Assembly: GCA_012524025.1 (NCBI GenBank)
Contig: JAAYSC010000017.1
Location: 1-64,000 of the forward strand
From: Clostridiales bacterium
GTDB taxonomy: Bacteria > Bacillota > Clostridia > Oscillospirales > Acutalibacteraceae
Direction of reading: 5' to 3'
Length of the DNA: 64,000 nt
This document shows positions 19,206 to 30,414 of this stretch, piece after piece. Within the stretch, counting starts at the first letter, position 1. Each line of letters starts with the position of its first letter. Made by a program: the position numbers and the translations under genes. The notes beneath the pieces were generated by a model, which was given only the letters and a program-made list of their open reading frames with translations, had not been told where the DNA came from and made no database searches.

Positions 19206-20336
19206 ATGAAAATTATAAATGCAAAAATTTTCACAATGGCAGACGGTGTAATTGAAAACGGGTTTGTGGAATTCACAAACAAGATTGAAGCGGTCGGCTC
19301 TATGAAAAACTGCCAACCCAAAGCGGGGGATTTGGATGCCAAGGGTGCAATGCTTTACCCGGGTTTTATAGACGCACACACTCACTTGGGTATTTTAGAA
19401 GATTCATTGGGCTTTGAAGGTGACGATTGCAACGAAACCACCAACCCCTGTACGCCCAATTTGCGTGCCGTAGATGCTGTGAACAATTTAGATTATTGTT
19501 TTGAAGAAGCGGTCGCGGCAGGTGTGACCACGGTGGTTACGGGTCCGGGCAGTGCAAACCCCGTGGCCGGAACATCGCTTGCTTTAAAAACAAAAGGGGA
19601 CTGTCTTGACAGCATGATTATCAAAGACCCTTTGGCTATGAAATTTGCCTTGGGCGAAAACCCTAAAAGAGTCTACGGGCAGAAAAAGACAACTCCTAAC
19701 ACCCGTATGGCGACAGCGGCCTTGATACGAGAGCAGCTTTATAAAGCCAAAGACTATTATGAGAAGCAGATGCAAGGCGAAAAGATAGAAAAGGATTTAA
19801 ATTTAGAAGCTCTCAGTCTTCTGTTTAAAGAAGACTTGCCGGCTCATTTCCACGCCCACAGAGTTGATGATATTTTTACCGCAATTAGAATCGCAGAAGA
19901 ATTTAATCTCAACTTTGCAATAATCCACGGCACACAAGGTCACAAAACAGCAGATATTTTGGCAAAAACAGATGCGGTTGTTATGAGCGGCCCCTTGTTT
20001 TCCGATCGAAGCAAACCGGAACTTAAAGACGCCACACCGGCCACACCCGGTATTTTGAGCAAGGCCGGGGTAACTACAGCAATAATTACAGATCACCCTA
20101 TTATTCCCATACAGTACTTGGCCCTATGTGCAGGCTTGGCGGTGAGAGAGGGCATGGATTACAATAAAGCGCTTGAAGCCATAACATGCTTGCCGGCAAA
20201 AATATGTGGAATTTTCGATAGAGTGGGTTCGATTGAAGTGGGTAAAGACGCCGACTTGCTCTTGTTTGACCAAGATCCTTTGACCTTGGCAGCCAAACCC
20301 AAAAAAGTTTTTATCGATGGGCTTTCTGCCTTATAA
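19206..20336 (+). CDS. Amidohydrolase family protein
   Basis: YPGFIDAHTHLGI, HFHAHRVDDI, AIIHGTQGH, ITDHPIIP, GKDADLLLFD. Confidence 0.9.
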   Translation: MKIINAKIFTMADGVIENGFVEFTNKIEAVGSMKNCQPKAGDLDAKGAMLYPGFIDAHTHLGILEDSLGFEGDDCNETTNPCTPNLRAVDAVNNLDYCFEEAVAAGVTTVVTGPGSANPVAGTSLALKTKGDCLDSMIIKDPLAMKFALGENPKRVYGQKKTTPNTRMATAALIREQLYKAKDYYEKQMQGEKIEKDLNLEALSLLFKEDLPAHFHAHRVDDIFTAIRIAEEFNLNFAIIHGTQGHKTADILAKTDAVVMSGPLFSDRSKPELKDATPATPGILSKAGVTTAIITDHPIIPIQYLALCAGLAVREGMDYNKALEAITCLPAKICGIFDRVGSIEVGKDADLLLFDQDPLTLAAKPKKVFIDGLSAL

Positions 20337-20352
20337 GAGAAGGTGTGTCAGA

Positions 20353-21195
20353 GTGAGAAAAATTGATCTGAACATAGTTAAAGACACTGTAAGGGATCTT
20401 TGTATCAAGGCTAATATAAGCTTGCCAAAAGGCCTGGAAAGTGCTTTAGCGACTGCCGCCGAAAACGAAGAGCTTCCTTCGGCAAGGGGAATTCTTGGGG
20501 ATTTGCAAGAAAACCTTTCAGCCGCAAAAGAGTTAAACATTCCGATTTGTCAGGACACGGGCATGACCCTTGTTTTTATCGAACTCGGTCAGGAAGTTTG
20601 CTTTACCGGCGGAAATTTTGAAGAGGCTATAAACCTTGGTGTTGCAGAAGGCTACCAAAAGGGGTTTTTGAGAACATCCATTGTCGCCGACCCCTTGAGA
20701 CGGGTTAATACCGGTGATAATACCCCCGCATTGATTTATACAAAGATTGTGCCCGGCGATAAGCTTAAAATCACCGTTGCGCCCAAGGGCTTTGGCAGTG
20801 AAAACAAAAGCCGTTTAAAAATGCTAAACCCTTCCGACGGCAAAGCTGAAATAGCACAATTTGTTATCGAAACCGTTGAACTGGCAGGAAGCAGCGCCTG
20901 CCCACCCTTTGTGATAGGTGTGGGTATCGGCGGTAATTTTGAGTATTGTGCCTTCCTTGCCAAAAAAGCTCTTTGTCGCCCACTTGACCAAAAAAATTCA
21001 GATGACTTCTATGCGAATTTTGAGGAAGAGCTTTTAGAAAGAGTGAACAAGTTGAATATTGGTCCCCAAGGTTTCGGGGGCAGCACTACGGCCCTGGCCT
21101 TGGCTGTTGAGCAAGCACCTACCCATATAGCAGGCCTTCCTTTGGCAGTGAATATCGGATGCCATGCTACTCGTCACGCATCAAAACTAATATAA
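20353..21195 (+). CDS. Fumarate hydratase / L(+)-tartrate dehydratase alpha-type subunit (class I, Fe-S)
   Basis: PICQDTGMTLVFIELG, GVGIGGNFEYCAFLAKKAL, GPQGFGG, NIGCHATRHASKLI; GTG 20353 is the likely start. Confidence 0.88.
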   Translation: MRKIDLNIVKDTVRDLCIKANISLPKGLESALATAAENEELPSARGILGDLQENLSAAKELNIPICQDTGMTLVFIELGQEVCFTGGNFEEAINLGVAEGYQKGFLRTSIVADPLRRVNTGDNTPALIYTKIVPGDKLKITVAPKGFGSENKSRLKMLNPSDGKAEIAQFVIETVELAGSSACPPFVIGVGIGGNFEYCAFLAKKALCRPLDQKNSDDFYANFEEELLERVNKLNIGPQGFGGSTTALALAVEQAPTHIAGLPLAVNIGCHATRHASKLI

Positions 21196-21299
21196 AAGCT
21201 GCAAATTACTGTGAAGTCGGCCTTTATAAATTTGTGTTTTTATGCTATCATTTATCTACAATCCCGATGGACGGGAATAATAATAAAGGGGATGACATT

Positions 21300-21827
21300 A
21301 TGAAAATTACTATTACGGGAAGAAAATGCTCACCCAGGGATTCTTTTAAAGAACGGGTTCAAAAAAAACTAACTAAAATCGAAAAGTTTTTCGGTGAAGG
21401 TGTTGAGGCAAAAGTAACCGTAACGGTTGAAAAAGCCGAGCAGATAGTTGAAATAACTCTAAAAAACAGAGGCCTTATTTTCAGAGCCGAAGAAAGTGCT
21501 GAAAACATGAACGATGCCTTTGATAAATGTGTTAATTCCTTAATTCGCCAGATAAGAAAAAACAAAACCAGGGTAGAAAAAAGATTAAGAAGCGGTTCAT
21601 TGGATGACCTTGTCGGCGCTTCAAACGAAAATGAAGAAGCAAGCTTTGACCTGGTGCGTTCAAAAACAATCAGACTTAAACCCGAGGATATTGACGAAGC
21701 TATTTTACAGATGAATATGTTGGGTCATCAGTTTTATATGTTTCTAAATGCTCAAACCAATGCAATAAATGTTGTTTATTTAAGAAAAGACGGCGGCTAC
21801 GGCTTGTTGGAGCCGGGCGAGGAATAA
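21300..21827 (+). CDS. hpf: Ribosome hibernation-promoting factor, long form
   Basis: MKITITGRKCSPRDSFKERVQKKLTKIEKFFG...FDLVRSKTIRLKPEDIDEAILQMNMLGHQFYMFLNAQTNAINVVYLRKDGGYGLLEP; track start 21159 too long. Confidence 0.95.
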   Translation: MKITITGRKCSPRDSFKERVQKKLTKIEKFFGEGVEAKVTVTVEKAEQIVEITLKNRGLIFRAEESAENMNDAFDKCVNSLIRQIRKNKTRVEKRLRSGSLDDLVGASNENEEASFDLVRSKTIRLKPEDIDEAILQMNMLGHQFYMFLNAQTNAINVVYLRKDGGYGLLEPGEE

Positions 21828-21838
21828 GAAATTGATTT

Positions 21839-21870
21839 TCAGGGCGAACTTTAAGTTTGCCCTGATTTTG
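21839..21870 (+). terminator. Terminator-like hairpin after hpf
   Basis: TCAGGGCGAACT-tta-AGTTTGCCCTGA followed by TTTTG. Confidence 0.75.
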
Positions 21871-21881
21871 AAAGGGTAGAA

Positions 21882-22997
21882 ATGGAAATAAATCTTACGG
21901 TCCCTTGCCTTTTGGGTGTTGAAAGTTTAGTGGCTAATGAATTAAAAGAACTTGGGGCCGGTAATGTCAAATCTGAAAACGGCAGAGTCTTCTTTACGGG
22001 TGACTGCCATATTTTAGCCAGAGCAAATATTAATTCAAGGTTTGCCGAACGAATACAAGTTTTGGTCGGCAGCTTTAAAGCAGAAAGCTTTGTTGAGCTT
22101 TTTGATCAAGTGAAGGCTTTGCCTTGGGAGGAGTGGATAGGCGAGGCCGATTCCTTCCCGGTTAAAGGCTATTCTAAGGACTCAACCCTTTTTTCTGTCA
22201 GCGACTGCCAATCAATTATAAAAAAAGCAATTGTTGAAAGATTGAAACAAAAATATAAACTTGAATGGTTTGATGAAACGGGGCCCTTACACCAAGTTCA
22301 ATTTTCAATTATTAAAGACAGGGTATTGATCTTGCTTGACACTACGGGCACCGGCCTACACAAGAGAGGCTATCGCCTGGAAGCTACTCAAGCGCCCATC
22401 AAAGAAACACTTGCGGCGGCCTTATGTCAAATTTCAAGGCTTCGCCCTTATCATACACTTTATGACCCTTTGTGCGGTTCGGGTACGATTTTGATAGAAG
22501 GGGCCATGATGGCTCTTAACAAAGCTCCGGGCCTCAACCGCAACTTCAGTGCTGTAAGATGGGGAAAGATAAACCAAGAGGTTTGGGTGCAAGAGAGGGA
22601 TCGAGCTCGGTCGCTTGAACAAAAAGCAGATGACTTTTTTGCCTATGGCTCCGACATGGATGAGACCGCTCTAAATTATGCGAAAGAAAACGCTAAAAGA
22701 GCCGGTGTGAAAAATCAAATCGAGTTTGGTTTGTTAAAATTATCTGATTTTAAGCCTAAAAGTGAGCGCGGGACTCTTATTTGCAACCCTCCCTATGGTG
22801 AACGCTTGCTTGATATGGAGCAGAGCGAGGCTCTATACAAGGAAATGGGGCAAATTTTTGAAAGAAAAAGGGGTTGGTCCTACACTATCATTAGCTCTTC
22901 TGAAACTTTTGAAGATTCTTTTGGGAGAAAGGCAGATAAAAGGCGAAAACTTTATAACGGTATGATCAAATGTCAAGCATTTATGTACTTTAAGTAG
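21882..22997 (+). CDS. THUMP-domain class I SAM-dependent RNA methyltransferase (RlmL/YpsC family)
   Basis: DPLCGSGTILIEGAM, FAYGSDMDETAL, LICNPPYGERL. Confidence 0.92.
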   Translation: MEINLTVPCLLGVESLVANELKELGAGNVKSENGRVFFTGDCHILARANINSRFAERIQVLVGSFKAESFVELFDQVKALPWEEWIGEADSFPVKGYSKDSTLFSVSDCQSIIKKAIVERLKQKYKLEWFDETGPLHQVQFSIIKDRVLILLDTTGTGLHKRGYRLEATQAPIKETLAAALCQISRLRPYHTLYDPLCGSGTILIEGAMMALNKAPGLNRNFSAVRWGKINQEVWVQERDRARSLEQKADDFFAYGSDMDETALNYAKENAKRAGVKNQIEFGLLKLSDFKPKSERGTLICNPPYGERLLDMEQSEALYKEMGQIFERKRGWSYTIISSSETFEDSFGRKADKRRKLYNGMIKCQAFMYFK

Positions 22998-23008
22998 GAG
23001 GATGCCAG

Positions 23009-23941
23009 ATGAAGCATATCTTTATTATCAACCCGGCAGCGGGAAAAAACAAAGCAGCTTGTGACATGATACCAAAGATAAAGTCTTTTGGTGAGACCAA
23101 GAAGTTAGATTTTGAAATTTATGAAACAAAAGGGCCGGGGGATGCGACCGAATATATTAAATCCTTACCCGAAAGTGAGACTATCACAAGGTTTTATGCT
23201 TGCGGAGGGGACGGTACGGTTTTTGAAGTCGTAAACGGAGCTTATGGCAGAGAAAACACTCAAATTGCAGTAATCCCATTGGGTTCGGGGAATGACTTTA
23301 TCAGGCTTTTTGGGAAAAAAGAAGATTTGTTGGATTTAGATATCCATCTAAACGGTAAGCCGACAGAATTAGATTTGATTAAATGCGGCGATATCTATGC
23401 TATAAACCAATGCTCCATGGGCTTGGATGCAGAGGTAAACGCGAAGCAATCCTACTTCAAAAAAGTGCCTTTTATGACGGGCGAAACCGCTTATGTTGCT
23501 TCAGTTTTATATTGTTTCCTGAAAAAAGTAAACAATACTTTTACCATTCAAATAGACGACGGAGAACCATACACGCAAGACACTGTTTTCTGTGTAGCCG
23601 CCAACGGCAGATGGTATGGCGGAGGCTTTATGGCAGCACCGCTTGCTATTCCTGACGACGGTCTCTTGGACTTTATAATTGTAAAGAAAAACATGAGTCG
23701 GGCCAAGCTGCTTTCGCTGATGGGTAAGTATAAGGCCGGCAAACATTTAGACTGGGATTGTACTACCTTTGTTCGCGGCAAAAAAATAAAACTGCACTGC
23801 GACGAAGTCGCGGCAGTTAATTGTGACGGCGAGAAGAAATATGTAAATGACATTACCTTTGAATTGGCAGAAAAGCGAATTACCTTTGTCGTTCCATCAA
23901 ACTCATCTTATTTTGAAAATAAGTCTTCAGAAAAAAAATAA
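23009..23941 (+). CDS. Diacylglycerol kinase family lipid kinase
   Basis: FIINPAAGKNKA, ACGGDGTVFEVVNG, IPLGSGNDFIRLF. Confidence 0.93.
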   Translation: MKHIFIINPAAGKNKAACDMIPKIKSFGETKKLDFEIYETKGPGDATEYIKSLPESETITRFYACGGDGTVFEVVNGAYGRENTQIAVIPLGSGNDFIRLFGKKEDLLDLDIHLNGKPTELDLIKCGDIYAINQCSMGLDAEVNAKQSYFKKVPFMTGETAYVASVLYCFLKKVNNTFTIQIDDGEPYTQDTVFCVAANGRWYGGGFMAAPLAIPDDGLLDFIIVKKNMSRAKLLSLMGKYKAGKHLDWDCTTFVRGKKIKLHCDEVAAVNCDGEKKYVNDITFELAEKRITFVVPSNSSYFENKSSEKK

Positions 23942-23945
23942 AGGG

Positions 23946-24611
23946 CTACAGCCTCAAAGAATATTCTCTACTGCGCAGGGCTTTAACAAGCTCTGCGTTG
24001 GTATTTATAGGGTTTTTAAACAGTATACCACCGGGCTTCATACGAAAATAATAATGAAAGTCAGTGCCGGATGTTTCTATGAGATTATATTCTTGAGCCC
24101 AGGCTTTAGCTATATTATTTGACGAGTTATGGCCGGAATTACCATTGTAAACTTCAATTCCATCCAATAAAGAAGGATTTACTATGCGCATATTTTTTCT
24201 GAAAGGGTGTGCTTGAACCAGTAAATAATTATTTTCACGCACTAAATCAGACAAGTGCTTTATATCTAAAGAACATAAATTTTTGTTTTTGTGCAAAAAT
24301 TCTTCTTCCACGCCAAAAATCAGATAGTCGTTGGGGTCACCGTCAAGTGAAATTTCAAGCCCTAAAAAGACTTTCATCTTGTTGCCGGCATAGGCCTTGG
24401 CAGCCCTGTAACCTGACAGGTATTTGTCCACTTGCTCCTTATAATTTAAATGACTGTTTCTTTTGAAAAAATGAAGATGGAAGTGGTCGGTTATTACGAT
24501 AGCGTCATAGCCTTCATCAATATAAGAATCAATCACTTGATTTGAATAAAGGTTGCCGCAAGAACTGACTTCGGCTGTATGGGCGTGGGTTTCAAGCAGA
24601 AAAACAGACAT
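23946..24611 (-). CDS. PHP-domain metal-dependent phosphoesterase
   Basis: LLETHAHTAEVS, AIVITDHFH, VQAHPFR, TSGTDFHY; ATG 24611 with AAAGGTGAC RBS. Confidence 0.85.
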   Translation of the reverse strand: MSVFLLETHAHTAEVSSCGNLYSNQVIDSYIDEGYDAIVITDHFHLHFFKRNSHLNYKEQVDKYLSGYRAAKAYAGNKMKVFLGLEISLDGDPNDYLIFGVEEEFLHKNKNLCSLDIKHLSDLVRENNYLLVQAHPFRKNMRIVNPSLLDGIEVYNGNSGHNSSNNIAKAWAQEYNLIETSGTDFHYYFRMKPGGILFKNPINTNAELVKALRSREYSLRL

Positions 24612-24777
24612 TTTGTCACCTTTCAAAATTTTAATTATGGATACAATGGGACAATATTACAATGTTAAAATATGTATATCAAATAGGCTCAATCAATTGC
24701 GGGCAAAATTCACACTGCGTTAATTGTTTTAGCTTACATATGCTATAGAATATAGAGTGGTCGGTAGGTGGTGTTAA

Positions 24778-25641
24778 ATGCTTGGTTATGTTAAAATTTA
24801 TAAGCCTCAATTAAAAATGTACGAGTATGAGACATACAAGGGGTTTTATTGCTCGCTTTGTAAGGAATTGGGTCGCTCATATTCTCATTTGGCACCTATT
24901 TTGCTTAATTATGATTATGTATTCTTATTACTCTTGAAACACTCACTTAAAGAGCAAGCGCCGGCATTTAGCCCCGGGCGCTGTTCATACAATCCCTTTG
25001 TTAAGTGCTCACGCTTTAAAGATGAAGAATTTTTAAAAAAGTGCTCGGACCTGATAATAATTATATCCTACTATAGCTTAAAAGACAATTTGTCTGACGA
25101 GGGTGGCCTTAAAAAACTTTCTTATTTGATTTTTTATCCTGTTTTGCGGCTTATGTGGCGCAAAGCTCGGAAAAGGGCAGGCCAATATGATAGAATAGTT
25201 GCCGATGCCATGCGAGAACAAGCAGAACTTGAAAAACAAAGTGGGCCGAGTATTGATGCCGTCTCGCACCCAACCGCACACGCCTTGGGTCAAATTTTCT
25301 CCGCCGATGAAACAAAGAGTGAACAGAAAAAAATACTTTACACTTTGGGTTACATGTTGGGGCGCTGGGTTTACTTTGCAGATGCAGTGGATGATATAGA
25401 AGACGATATCAAACAAAAAAATTTCAACCCCTTTATGGACCAATTTCTTAAAGATGAAAATAAAGACAAAAGTGAATTCTCCGATTACGCTCTATGTGTT
25501 TTACGCCAAAGTGCAGGTGAAGCAACCTTGGCATTTGAATTGTTAAATGTAAAGCGATACAAAGGTGTATTAGAAAATATTCTCTATGAAGGTTTGGAAG
25601 AAGTGGAAGCCGAAATCTTAAATAAGAGGGGAAAAGATTAG
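24778..25641 (+). CDS. DUF5685-like protein
   Basis: MLGYVKIYKPQLKMYEYETYKGFYCSLCKELGRSYS N-terminus; GRWVYFADAVDDIEDDIKQKNFNPF. Confidence 0.7.
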   Translation: MLGYVKIYKPQLKMYEYETYKGFYCSLCKELGRSYSHLAPILLNYDYVFLLLLKHSLKEQAPAFSPGRCSYNPFVKCSRFKDEEFLKKCSDLIIIISYYSLKDNLSDEGGLKKLSYLIFYPVLRLMWRKARKRAGQYDRIVADAMREQAELEKQSGPSIDAVSHPTAHALGQIFSADETKSEQKKILYTLGYMLGRWVYFADAVDDIEDDIKQKNFNPFMDQFLKDENKDKSEFSDYALCVLRQSAGEATLAFELLNVKRYKGVLENILYEGLEEVEAEILNKRGKD

Positions 25642-25642
25642 C

Positions 25643-26266
25643 GTGAAAACACCGTATCAAATTTTAGGGATTCCCGAACAAGCCGATGCGCAGACTGTAA
25701 AAAACGCTTACAGAGAACTTGCGCGAAAATTCAGCGGTGAAAACTATTCGGCAGGCCCTCTTGACGAGATTGCTCAAACCAGGATGAAAGAAATTGACCA
25801 AGCTTATGATGCAATCGTCCAAGCACGCCCTGCGGATTTTCAAGCCGACACAAACTACGGCAAAGCGTCAGGCAGCCGAACCGGAACCTATGCCCGTGAT
25901 TACTCCGATTTGGATGATATCAGAGCAAAACTGCAGGCTGGAAGACTTGATGATGTTCAAATTTTGCTGGATGGCATACCACCTTCAAAAAGAAAGGCTG
26001 AATGGTATTTCTTGAAGGGCACGGTTCATCACCGCAGGGGCTGGCTTGAGGAAGCCTTCAATAATTACAGCAAAGCTTACAATATGGAACCCGGTAATCC
26101 TGAATACAGAAACGCCTATAACAATCTGTCGGCATCTCGCCAAGGGGCACATCGGCAGAGGAGAAGGGCTAAGCGGGGTTGCACGGGTTGCGATATTTGC
26201 ACCGCATTAATATGTGCGGATTTTTGTTGTGAATGTATGGGTTCTGACTTAATCAGGTGTTGTTAA
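25643..26266 (+). CDS. J-domain-like protein with TPR-like segment and Cys-rich tail
   Basis: TPYQILGIPEQADAQTVKNAYRELARKFSGENYSAGPLDEIAQTRMKEIDQAYDAI; tail GCTGCDICTALICADFCCECMGSDLIRCC. Confidence 0.8.
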   Translation: MKTPYQILGIPEQADAQTVKNAYRELARKFSGENYSAGPLDEIAQTRMKEIDQAYDAIVQARPADFQADTNYGKASGSRTGTYARDYSDLDDIRAKLQAGRLDDVQILLDGIPPSKRKAEWYFLKGTVHHRRGWLEEAFNNYSKAYNMEPGNPEYRNAYNNLSASRQGAHRQRRRAKRGCTGCDICTALICADFCCECMGSDLIRCC

Positions 26267-26278
26267 GTGGGGGTGACT

Positions 26279-26815
26279 ATGAAAAACAGCTCTAAAACCG
26301 CCTTGGGCGGTATCATTGCAGCCTTGTCCTTGACACTTTTGTTTTCTGTATCGATTGTTCCTTTTTTCACATATGCTCTACCGGCAGCTGCGGCGACACT
26401 TTTGATACCGCTTGTTATTGAAGTCAATAAAAGATGGGCTCTGGGGGTGTATGCCGGGGTCAGCCTGCTTAGTTTTTTCATTGTTCCCGACAAAGAAGTT
26501 GCGGTTATGTATGCCGCATTTTTCGGTTATTATGTAATATTGAAATTTTCACTTGAAAGCAAATTCAATAAAGTTATATCTTGGTTGTTTAAATGTGCTT
26601 TGTTTAATATTTCGGCCCTAATCTCTTATTTTTTGATGATTCGCTTTATGGGGATTGAGCTCGATGAGCTTGAAAAATTTGGTATGGTAGCAATTCCCAT
26701 TCTACTTGCTTTGGGCACTTTTGCATTTGTCCTTTATGACATTGCCTTAACAAGGGTAATTTACTACTATCTTGCGAGATGGAGAAAACACATACTAAAG
26801 CTTATAAAATTCTAA
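26279..26815 (+). CDS. Multi-TM membrane protein of unknown function
   Basis: Several hydrophobic segments; ATG 26279 preceded by GGGGGTG (track start 26267). Confidence 0.75.
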   Translation: MKNSSKTALGGIIAALSLTLLFSVSIVPFFTYALPAAAATLLIPLVIEVNKRWALGVYAGVSLLSFFIVPDKEVAVMYAAFFGYYVILKFSLESKFNKVISWLFKCALFNISALISYFLMIRFMGIELDELEKFGMVAIPILLALGTFAFVLYDIALTRVIYYYLARWRKHILKLIKF

Positions 26816-26842
26816 AAAATCTCCGATCTCTCTTCCGGCTTC

Positions 26843-26871
26843 TTGTACAGCAACTGCGTTTGGTTTATAAT
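26843..26871 (+). promoter_or_regulatory. Putative sigma-A type promoter for the GH109/kinase/GH4 operon
   Basis: TTGTAC-N17-TATAAT. Confidence 0.65.
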
Positions 26872-26900
26872 GTTAAAAACTTTTTATGGAGATGTGTCTT

Positions 26901-28139
26901 ATGGCTAAAGAAAAAACAAATTTTGCAATTATCGGTTTAAGTGGTCGAGGGCTGGGTATGCTTTCAGAATTTGTCAGCATTGAAGGTGTTCAAGTAACCG
27001 CTGTTTGCGATATATATGAAGACCGGGTTGAAAAAGGGGCTAAAATTGTTGAGGAAAAGGCCGGCAACACACCGGACAAATACCTGGATTACAAAGAACT
27101 CTTAAAAAGAGACGATATTGCCGCTGTCTTGTGTTGTACAACATGGATTACACATGCGCGCATTGCCGTTGATTCTATGCGGGCGGGCAAGCATGTTGCA
27201 ATTGAAGTAGGGGGCGCAGCTTCTCTTGAAGAATGTTGGCAAATGGTAAGAGCATCGGAAGAAACCGGTAAGTTTTGTATGCTGTTGGAAAATTGTTGTT
27301 ATGACCGAAATGAGTTGGCGCTTTTCAACATGCAACGCCAGGGCTTATTTGGTGAAATGATACATGCACAGGGCGGTTATTTACATGACTTGCGTGAAGA
27401 AATATTGCAAGGCCGAGAAAACCGCCATGGAAGATTGGTAAACTTTATGAATAGAAACGGTGATGTTTACCCCACCCATCAACTTGGACCCATAGCAAAA
27501 ATGTTTAATATAAACAGGGGTAACAGGCTCTTGACTCTTACCTCAATGGCCAGCAAGGCCAGGGGACTCAATGAAAGAATAAAAAACACCAGGCCTGCGG
27601 ATTATGACCTAAGGGATTTTGCCTTCGCACAAGGCGATATTGTAACAACCATGATTAAATGTGCCCATGGCGAAACCATCTTGCTTACACACGCCTGTAC
27701 TTTACCACGCCCTTATTCCAGGGATTACAGAATCCAGGGCACTAAAGGGATCTGGATGGAAGACGGTAATCTTATTCATCTTGAAGATTTTAGTCCGGAA
27801 GAAAAATGGGAACCTTTTGAAACTTACAGGGAAAAATATGAGCATCCCTTGTGGCGACAATATGAAAAGGATGGTATAAGAACGAGTGGGCACGGCGGCA
27901 TGGACTATTTGGTTCTCTGTGCCTTTGCGGAAAGTGCCATAAAAGATTCAAAACCCCCAATCGATGTTTATGATACAGCCCTTTGGATGTCAATTACATG
28001 TTTGTCAGAACAATCGGTTGCGTTGGGCAGTGCACCTGTTGCAATCCCTGATTTTACCAATGGCGCTTGGATAGAGCGTGAGCCCTTTAGAAGGGGAATA
28101 TATTGCCTGGAAGAAGTATGTGAAGAATTTTTTGAATAA
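26901..28139 (+). CDS. Gfo/Idh/MocA family protein resembling GH109 (NAD-dependent alpha-N-acetylgalactosaminidase-like)
   Basis: FAIIGLSGRGLGML Rossmann motif; GRLVNFMNRNGDVYPTHQLGPIAKMFNINRGNRLLTLTSMASKARGL is GH109-like. Confidence 0.8.
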   Translation: MAKEKTNFAIIGLSGRGLGMLSEFVSIEGVQVTAVCDIYEDRVEKGAKIVEEKAGNTPDKYLDYKELLKRDDIAAVLCCTTWITHARIAVDSMRAGKHVAIEVGGAASLEECWQMVRASEETGKFCMLLENCCYDRNELALFNMQRQGLFGEMIHAQGGYLHDLREEILQGRENRHGRLVNFMNRNGDVYPTHQLGPIAKMFNINRGNRLLTLTSMASKARGLNERIKNTRPADYDLRDFAFAQGDIVTTMIKCAHGETILLTHACTLPRPYSRDYRIQGTKGIWMEDGNLIHLEDFSPEEKWEPFETYREKYEHPLWRQYEKDGIRTSGHGGMDYLVLCAFAESAIKDSKPPIDVYDTALWMSITCLSEQSVALGSAPVAIPDFTNGAWIEREPFRRGIYCLEEVCEEFFE

Positions 28140-28158
28140 TAAGCGGAGGTAGTTGAAG

Positions 28159-29100
28159 ATGAAATATTTTATTGGCGTTGACGGTGGCGGGACCAAAACA
28201 GAGTTTACCCTTTACGATGAAAACAAGAATGCCTTGGCCACAGTTCTGGGGCCGGGCAGCAATCATGAAAATTATGAAGAAGCTTTTGACAAAGCGGCAG
28301 AAATTATTTGGGACGGATTGACCCGACTTGTTGAAAAGATGAATATTGACATTAAAGATGTCAGCTTTACCTTAATGGGCTTGGCCGGCATAGACCATAG
28401 CTTCCAATATGACGCAATGTGTGAAATCTTACGCAAAAAGGGTCTGGAAAGGTTCGAAATTTTTAACGACGGTTTTATTGTAGTTAAAGCCGGCTCAAAA
28501 AGCGGCGCAGCAATCGGTTTGAATTGTGGCACCGGTACTTGCTGCAATGCCATCGACTCCAAGGGTAAGATGTTGCAGTTGGCGGGTTTGGGTGATTTTT
28601 CAGGTGATGTTGGCAACGGGCAATGGATCGCACTTAAAACTTTTAAGACGATCTATGATCAATTATACTTATTTTTAGACGAAAGCTTGCTGACAAAACT
28701 TTTATTTGAAAAGTTAAATCTCAAAAATCGTGAAGAATTTCTGGGTTTATTGGAAAAACTGGAAAGCGACGAAGCCAATGAACTTATTATGCTGCTTATC
28801 TCTATATTTTTTGAAGCTGCTAACGCAGGGGATAAAGTTACACTTGCTTTGGTTGATGAGATGGCTCTTCGCGGTGCCCAATTGATTGCCGCCCATTGCG
28901 CACAGTTGGATTTTGATTCAGATCCGGTTGAAGTAATACTGTCTGGCTCCATCCACACTAAACTACCCTCGGATGTCTATATTGAAAGACTGATCGAAAA
29001 AACTAAAGAATTGGCCAAGAGGGAGTTTGATTTTATCAAACTGGATAAACCACCCGTTTATGGTTGCATAAATTGGATTTTGCAATCATATAACAAATAA
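28159..29100 (+). CDS. BadF/BadG/BcrA/BcrD-family ATPase, amino-sugar (GlcNAc/MurNAc-type) kinase-like
   Basis: YFIGVDGGGTKTEFTLYD, GAAIGLNCGTGTCCNAID, GDFSGDVGNGQWIALK. Confidence 0.85.
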   Translation: MKYFIGVDGGGTKTEFTLYDENKNALATVLGPGSNHENYEEAFDKAAEIIWDGLTRLVEKMNIDIKDVSFTLMGLAGIDHSFQYDAMCEILRKKGLERFEIFNDGFIVVKAGSKSGAAIGLNCGTGTCCNAIDSKGKMLQLAGLGDFSGDVGNGQWIALKTFKTIYDQLYLFLDESLLTKLLFEKLNLKNREEFLGLLEKLESDEANELIMLLISIFFEAANAGDKVTLALVDEMALRGAQLIAAHCAQLDFDSDPVEVILSGSIHTKLPSDVYIERLIEKTKELAKREFDFIKLDKPPVYGCINWILQSYNK

Positions 29101-29130
29101 CCAATTAAAACCTTGGAAAGGTGAAATGAA

Positions 29131-30414
29131 ATGAAAGAAATTAATGTAGCTGTTATAGGTTCCGGTAGCACATATTGTCCGGAGCTGATCGATGGATTTA
29201 TAAAGGCGCAAGACAGCCTTAAGCTTAAGAAATTAGCCTTGATGGATATAGATCAACGAAAGAGAGATATAGTAGGCAATCTATGTGTGCGCATGCTCGA
29301 TGAAGCCGATATAGATTGTGAAGTGCTTATGACCGATGATTTGGCCTTGGCCTTGCAAGGGGCAGACTTTGTTGTAACACAAATCAGAGTAGGCAAGTTG
29401 CCGGCAAGGCATCTTGACGAGACCATCCCCTTAAAACATGGCCTAATCGGTCAAGAGACTACGGGAATAGGGGGCTTTTTTAAAGCTCTCAGAACCATTC
29501 CGGTTATGAAAGACATATGCGATAAAATCGAAAAGATTTGTCCCGATGCTTGGTTAATTAATTTCACTAACCCATCAGGCATAATCACTGAATATGTTTT
29601 GAATCATACCAATGTCAAATGCATGGGTTTGTGTAATGTTCCCATAAATATGGTTGACGACACTAAAGAGGTAAGCGGTGAAGACAGCGATATTGTTTAT
29701 CTTGGTTTAAACCATCTCAGCTGGATCACATCTGTAAAAAAAGACGGTGAAGAAATGCTTACCAAGCTATTAGATGAGGGTTTTTCCACAAAAGTAATGG
29801 AAAACATAAAAGATGATGGCTTTTCACTTGAAGCTTTGGCGACTATCGAAGCAATTCCTTCTTCCTATCTTCAGTACTTCTATGGCAGACAAAAAAAGCT
29901 TGACAGTTTGATAGAAGCGCAACAAAGCAGGGCGCAAGAGTGCATTGACATTGAAGAAAGCTTATTAGAACTATATTCGGACGAAAGCATTACAAAAAAG
30001 CCGGACTTGCTCGATAAGCGGGGAGGGCATAAGTATTCTTTGGCAGCTGTATCACTAATAGATGCAATTGCAAATGATACGCAAGCCATTAACATTGTAA
30101 ACATTAAAAACAAGGGTGCCTTGCCTTTCATGGAAGATAATGATGTGGTAGAAGTAGCTGCCTATGTTGGCAAGGACGGTGCGCAAGCGGTTGAAATTCC
30201 GGTATGTGATAACCGCCATATAGTCGGTTTAATGCGCATAGTTAAAGATTATGAAAAGTTCACAGTCCAAGCCGGTGCAAACGGTGATGATAAGGCTGCC
30301 ATGAATGCTCTTATTATCCACCCCTTGATTGGTGACTGGGACAAGGCCGATGCTTGCTACAAGGAAATGAAAGAAGCTCACAAAAGTTTCTTACCACAGT
30401 TTTTCAACAAATAA
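29131..30414 (+). CDS. GH4 family glycosidase (6-phospho-beta-glucosidase-like)
   Basis: VAVIGSGSTYCPELIDGF, GLIGQETTGIGGFFKALRTIPV, LINFTNPSGIITEYV, GLCNVP, LGLNHLSW. Confidence 0.92.
   Translation: MKEINVAVIGSGSTYCPELIDGFIKAQDSLKLKKLALMDIDQRKRDIVGNLCVRMLDEADIDCEVLMTDDLALALQGADFVVTQIRVGKLPARHLDETIPLKHGLIGQETTGIGGFFKALRTIPVMKDICDKIEKICPDAWLINFTNPSGIITEYVLNHTNVKCMGLCNVPINMVDDTKEVSGEDSDIVYLGLNHLSWITSVKKDGEEMLTKLLDEGFSTKVMENIKDDGFSLEALATIEAIPSSYLQYFYGRQKKLDSLIEAQQSRAQECIDIEESLLELYSDESITKKPDLLDKRGGHKYSLAAVSLIDAIANDTQAINIVNIKNKGALPFMEDNDVVEVAAYVGKDGAQAVEIPVCDNRHIVGLMRIVKDYEKFTVQAGANGDDKAAMNALIIHPLIGDWDKADACYKEMKEAHKSFLPQFFNK

Follow-up and report, generated by a model that had tools for sequence, protein, structure and literature searches.

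Natural J domains need the His-Pro-Asp (HPD) triad for stimulation of Hsp70. The window analysed here, a stretch of 64,000 nucleotides from a gut bacterium of the Clostridiales (contig JAAYSC010000017.1), contains a gene whose product resembles a J-domain protein with Ser-Gly-Glu (SGE) in the place of that triad. This raises the question of what such a protein does, and whether its J-like domain is a co-chaperone, a decaying remnant or a module put to another use.

The gene and its predicted product

The features of the locus that are referred to below are these:

24778–25641, + strand: gene for a DUF5685 protein with a predicted isoprenoid-synthase fold (PF18937, 250.5 bits; structural model; Foldseek)
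25643–26266, + strand: gene for the J-like/TPR/Cys-tail protein (open reading frame; 207 residues plus stop)
25652–25828, + strand: J-like domain, residues 4–62 (Pfam DnaJ at residues 4–57; AlphaFold2 helices; Foldseek)
25733–25741, + strand: SGE in place of HPD, residues 31–33 (sequence; alignment of 165 orthologues)
25904–26146, + strand: TPR-like helical region, about residues 88–168 (TPR_2 in 56 of 67 aligned family members; AlphaFold2 helices)
26174–26263, + strand: Cys-rich C-terminal tail, residues 178–207, ending in Cys-Cys (Cys counts in orthologues)
26267–26815, + strand: gene for a small membrane protein, the third of the cassette (directly downstream; alternative ATG start at 26279)

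The J-like gene starts with GTG one base past the DUF5685 stop, with an SD-like AGAGGGG just upstream. Its codons 31–33, AGC GGT GAA, encode Ser-Gly-Glu and align with the HPD of relatives. The product matches the Pfam DnaJ profile (PF00226) with 32.2 bits, over the cut-off of 27.8, and was also matched by sequence to DnaJ J domains in the PDB, so that the J-domain call stands above chance; the same profile matches all 67 aligned family members. Pfam matches to TPR in the 207-residue protein itself are weak. The linker between the J domain and the TPR is predicted to be disordered, and the Cys tail reads CTGCDICTALICADFCCECMGSDLIRCC.

An AlphaFold2 model of the protein, built without templates from 67 rows of the family, contains J-domain helices at residues 4–8, 16–30 and 41–61, most of residues 1–62 having a pLDDT above 90, and TPR helices at residues 89–98, 102–111, 119–132, 135–148 and 153–168, with pLDDT of 94–98 over most of their length. 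The J domain is not packed against the TPR, the linker is again disordered, and the Cys tail has a pLDDT of about 50. Foldseek on the model retrieved TPR proteins and J domains, among the latter 6rzy_A (rmsd 1.2) and 5nro_B, the J domain of DnaJ bound to DnaK (rmsd 1.6). A helix II–loop–helix III J fold is thus predicted, with the caveat that HPD-bearing rows in the input alignment may have favoured it. The first-pass annotation had identified a J-like protein and proposed a structural comparison with the DnaJ J domain, and both the Pfam score and the predicted fold agree with that identification. The span that it gave, 25643–25825, covers the J domain and leaves out the TPR and also the Cys-rich tail, the module that varies least.

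The genome to which the window belongs (2.13 Mb, 97% complete, assembled in 94 contigs) encodes two J proteins, the HPD-less one and a canonical DnaJ with HPD that lies elsewhere. It has one full-length DnaK; two further PF00012 matches are only partial. We considered a paralogue filling the HPD role and rejected it, as the SGE protein and DnaJ are the only J proteins; a second Hsp70 as a private partner was likewise rejected, as the genome has one full DnaK only.

HPD state and constraint among orthologues

We searched for the J-like protein in 60 relatives and in 250 genomes of the family and found it in most, with orthologues present in 199 of the 250 family genomes. The first-pass annotation had called SGE at 25733–25741 and had suggested aligning homologues encoded beside DUF5685 genes. 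Such an alignment, comprising 165 orthologues of 107 genera from the fetched loci, bears out the substitution and reveals HPD in 130 rows and a substituted triad in 35. The substituted rows carry 30 different triads, and Gln at the first position (H to Q) is the commonest change; H to Q in HPD abolishes stimulation of the Hsp70 ATPase (PMC8215388). By genus, 87 of the 107 have HPD in all rows, 19 lack it in all and one is mixed. Three other genomes of the window genus read GDE, SDD and SKE, none of them HPD.

It might be argued that SGE results from faulty sequencing or assembly, the draft being fragmented into 94 contigs. A base-calling error is ruled out because the replacement of HPD is common to all other same-genus genomes examined. 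In addition, 30 of the 32 rows in the clade described below lack HPD, each of the three codons is changed and the reading frame is unbroken. We therefore rejected this explanation, to which we give practically no credence.

In a tree of DUF5685, the J-like protein minus its loop and the membrane protein, 30 of the 35 non-HPD rows fall in one clade. With all J-domain columns removed, IQ-TREE recovered the clade, 32 rows in total, with support of 100/100. The J domains of its two HPD rows (L022 and L139, both from one genus, g4) resemble HPD-bearing ones generally, and their presence implies either more than one loss of HPD inside the clade or a regain. The non-HPD rows outside the clade, namely L021 (NEM), L057 (HLD), L096 with L141 (QPE and QPD) and L169 (NPQ), are changes separate from the loss in the clade. 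Judged from the alignment and the tree, the wider family is HPD-bearing, and the triad was lost in the well-supported clade of the window genome and separately elsewhere. On the same evidence, the loss is old and recurrent, with 19 all-loss genera, and is not peculiar to the window gene.

To describe constraint after the loss, we drew 200 samples of 30 HPD-bearing rows, similar in diversity to the 30 non-HPD rows of the clade, and set the latter against them. Mean column entropy was higher in the non-HPD clade than in the HPD samples for the DnaK-facing set (1.41 versus 0.42 bits), the fold core (0.56 versus 0.25 bits) and helices I–II (1.32 versus 0.82 bits), and the clade's J-domain values were reached by none of the 200 samples. 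The corresponding values were 1.45 and 1.47 bits for the TPR and 0.84 and 0.99 bits for the Cys tail, both of which are under as much constraint in the clade as outside it.

K48 of DnaJ forms a salt bridge to D477 of DnaK. At this helix III contact, 12 of the 30 non-HPD clade rows have Asp or Glu; at residue 52, Asn is invariant in HPD-bearing rows and Asp is found in 19 of the 30; and K29 is down to 57% in the non-HPD clade. In the clade, positions 20, 24 and 28 of helix II are largely still basic (Lys or Arg). At the contacts corresponding to R22, K26, K48 and K51 of DnaJ, the window protein retains K20, R24 and K49 and has D52 at the K51 position. A54, Y55, Y23 and L8 of the J-like domain are invariant. 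Deletions in the II–III loop occur in L015, L042, L050, L126, L144 and L151.

Pairwise dN/dS of the J domain is about 0.03–0.17 in non-HPD pairs where dS was measurable, dS being saturated in several; these pairs are looser than HPD pairs, yet remain under purifying selection. The freed DnaK face together with purifying dN/dS indicates that the domain is neither an intact co-chaperone nor pseudogene-like. On the dN/dS values simple decay is unlikely, as the first-pass annotation had argued. Its further claim of a conserved helical framework holds in part: the fold core is mostly kept, but the DnaK-facing charges are relaxed and the core is somewhat looser. We looked in the non-HPD clade for a new conserved surface replacing the DnaK face and found none, which slow decay would equally predict. 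Taken together, these comparisons indicate that the DnaK-contact surface was freed after the loss of HPD, with the fold, the TPR, the Cys tail and the gene order kept.

The DUF5685 cassette and the Cys tail

DUF5685, which the first-pass annotation had named as the neighbour, lies directly upstream of the J-like gene. It precedes the J-like gene in 164 of the 166 loci with room, and the membrane-protein gene follows directly on the same strand in 160 of 162. Among the 250 family genomes, 192 have both the J-like protein and DUF5685, three have DUF5685 only and seven have a J match only, which in most cases is weak or sits at the edge of a contig. Beside the cassette, 23009–24626 holds a YegS-like diacylglycerol-kinase gene (+) and a PHP-domain gene (−). 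An Rfam scan over 20000–30000 returned no match. In the PADLOC scan for defence systems the membrane protein matched SspB weakly and nothing else was found, and membership of a defence system was rejected.

No function for DUF5685 is assigned in the literature searched, which mentions it once, in passing. Its sequence profile retrieved designed helical proteins as the best PDB matches, and a comparison of folds was therefore needed. The DUF5685 model has a pLDDT of 95.2, and its top 50 Foldseek matches are all isoprenyl-diphosphate synthases or their relatives (the prenyltransferase MoeN5, squalene synthase), the best with E of about 1e-3 and TM up to 0.66. C25, C28, C69, D103, D107, D160, D202, D206 and D210 are invariant, and they include two Asp-rich motifs, D103-x3-D107 and D202-x3-D206-x3-D210, which are invariant in 74 sequences. 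DUF5685 is thus predicted to adopt an all-alpha isoprenoid-synthase fold with putative metal-binding Asp motifs. BalTS, a relative of YtpB, carries the motifs DYLDNLxD and DY(F,L,W)IDxxED (PMC7839719). The Asp motifs of DUF5685 resemble these, and also those of DUF2600, the YtpB-type large terpene synthases (DNLxD and Y-F-x-D-x-x-[ED]-D). The likeness is suggestive, but hhalign of DUF5685 with DUF2600 gives a probability of only 3.4% (P 0.013), too weak to establish homology.

The membrane protein (26267–26815) has invariant Gly, Lys and Asp residues. Five of 36 members gave weak DUF2232 matches and no other curated family was matched; a search of the PDB found no relative.

The Cys tail is the most constant part of the J-like protein. 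The last 30 residues of the orthologues contain 9.8 Cys on average, against 0.46% Cys elsewhere, and 149 of the 165 end in CC, including all 35 non-HPD ones. Where the modules vary, the tail stays. L204 (1516–1926) belongs to a distant family of the phylum and not to the one in which the HPD-less clade was sampled. Between its DUF5685 and membrane genes it encodes a TPR and a Cys tail but no J domain, and none was found in any frame of the gap. L205 (1501–1911) and L206 (1360–1760, minus strand), likewise from the wider phylum, encode a J domain with HPD and a Cys tail and no TPR. All three retain the tail and both cassette neighbours. Because the tail is retained where the J domain (L204) or the TPR (L205 and L206) is absent, we infer that it is the core module, with the J domain and the TPR serving for docking. 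In L182–L185, a more distant DUF5685/J pair has J domains of HPDLNPG type and short hydrophobic Cys tails; the tail of these deeper relatives is shorter and more hydrophobic, and its Cys spacing is not fixed. The main cassette is also present in three of these four genomes, and L186 has a DUF5685 of the L182–L185 type with no recognisable J gene downstream.

A homologue in Pusillibacter faecalis, of the Oscillospiraceae (WP_187028544.1), annotated by NCBI only as 'J domain-containing protein', is 40% identical over 95% of the query and, like most relatives, presumably carries HPD. DUF5685 directly precedes it, as in the window, but it is followed by YicC and not by the membrane gene. The replicon that carries this pair (L240, NZ_AP023421.1, 157461–170030) is 504 kb long and was typed as a conjugative plasmid. 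It also has the core genes ispD, ispF, cdaA, gmk, rpoZ, priA and fmt next to the pair, and may be a chromid rather than a plasmid.

Proposed role of the HPD-less protein and its relation to known J-like proteins

Our preferred reading, to which we assign a probability of about 0.6, is that the window protein is an HPD-less J-like ('type IV') adaptor that descends from an HPD-bearing J-protein of class C and has lost its coupling to DnaK. Its ancestor would have been an ordinary class C J-domain protein with HPD, and the HPD-less protein would no longer stimulate DnaK. It would act as the cytoplasmic adaptor of the unit formed by DUF5685, the J-TPR-Cys protein and the membrane protein, with the J-like domain and the TPR docking proteins and the Cys tail as the core part, most likely a site of membrane or lipid attachment and, as a second choice, a metal site. 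In HPD-bearing relatives, this complex would draw in DnaK as an optional helper, with which it would dispense in the HPD-less clade. The J-like domain is probably a docking piece now, because HPD has been lost in about thirty of the sampled relatives and the rest of the three-gene unit has been kept. The absence of HPD is not absolute proof of uncoupling, since stimulation of Hsp70 has been reported for a designed analogue of the J domain that has no HPD (PMC13254874).

That analogue also lends some credit to a non-canonical contact by which the J-like protein would still act on DnaK or another Hsp70, as do the largely basic positions 20, 24 and 28 of helix II. This is rather improbable, given the acidic helix III contact in 12 of 30 clade rows, K29 at 57% and a genome in which the two PF00012 matches besides DnaK are partial. 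A larger, though still minor, chance is left to the idea that the domain is a remnant under weakened selection and heading for loss, in the order HPD (often by H to Q), contact surface, pieces of the II–III loop and finally the whole domain, as in L204. The freed loop and contact positions, the somewhat looser core, the loop deletions and the J-less L204 all fit such a course. However, the domain is retained in all 165 aligned orthologues, including non-HPD rows from about 20 genera; dN/dS is far below 1, with four residues (A54, Y55, Y23 and L8) invariant; and L204 comes from a distant family, outside the sample for the HPD-less clade.

It is very improbable that the J-like domain works as Pam16 does, pairing with a true J domain, here that of DnaJ, and restraining it. 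Pam16, which binds Pam18, does carry DKE or DKS at the HPD position (PMC13254874), and the part of CJD1 that binds ARC6 takes in its J-like domain (PMC3196505), but the cassette has no dedicated second J protein, the other J protein of the genome being the housekeeping DnaJ encoded elsewhere. There is a small chance that DUF5685, as an enzyme that binds or transfers isoprenoids, prenylates the C-terminal Cys of the J/TPR/Cys protein, which would thereby be fixed to the membrane with the third product of the cassette; the J domain would then recruit DnaK in some lineages only. Such prenylation would be, in outline, a bacterial counterpart of that of Rab -CC termini.

The adaptor reading places the protein among known kinds. 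Type IV or J-like proteins have a J domain in which HPD is non-conservatively replaced and are presumed unable to stimulate Hsp70 (PMC13254874); they are known from eukaryotes and from chloroplast and cyanobacterial lineages (PMC13254874, PMC3196505, PMC6391411). The window protein falls within this definition, with a clear J domain and a non-conservative SGE, and lacks HPD, one of the hallmarks of a functional class C co-chaperone of Hsp70. Pam16, DnaJB13 and the type IV proteins of P. falciparum likewise combine a recognisable J domain with a replaced HPD. However, these are eukaryotic, whereas the present family is bacterial and carries a TPR and a Cys tail, and, unlike theirs, its HPD-bearing orthologues survive in sister genera.

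CJD1, ARC6/ZipN and CPP1 are alike in using a J-like domain for protein docking, and the J-like domain of CJD1, which lacks HPD, neither replaces E. coli DnaJ nor binds chloroplast Hsp70 (PMC3196505). In contrast to the present family, CJD1, ARC6 and CPP1 come from other phyla, have transmembrane segments and FtsZ binding, and lack such a Cys tail and a DUF5685 neighbour. We rejected membership of the CPP1/CJD1/ARC6 group, as the Pfam CPP1-like family matched weakly in 2 of 67 family members and the TPR and Cys tail replace the transmembrane segments. CSP/DNAJC5 also joins a J domain to a Cys-rich segment; in this eukaryotic protein the segment is modified with palmitate and directs it to membranes (PMC4447612). 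The analogy is one of layout only: CSP/DNAJC5 keeps HPD and has its Cys string in a different context.

J domains that lack HPD have precedents, but the literature searched contains no description of this bacterial family, of its repeated losses or of its partner. A 2026 review calls it 'enigmatic' whether departures from HPD are evolutionary accidents or were selected (PMC13254874). The family offers a natural experiment in bacteria, as HPD and non-HPD orthologues occur in the same operon, with several independent losses, the textbook change of H to Q and a measurable freeing of mainly the DnaK surface, the remainder of the protein being still constrained. The cassette is widespread and uncharacterised in gut Clostridia, and the tie of a J/TPR/Cys protein to a DUF with an apparent isoprenoid-synthase fold suggests a function that can be tested.
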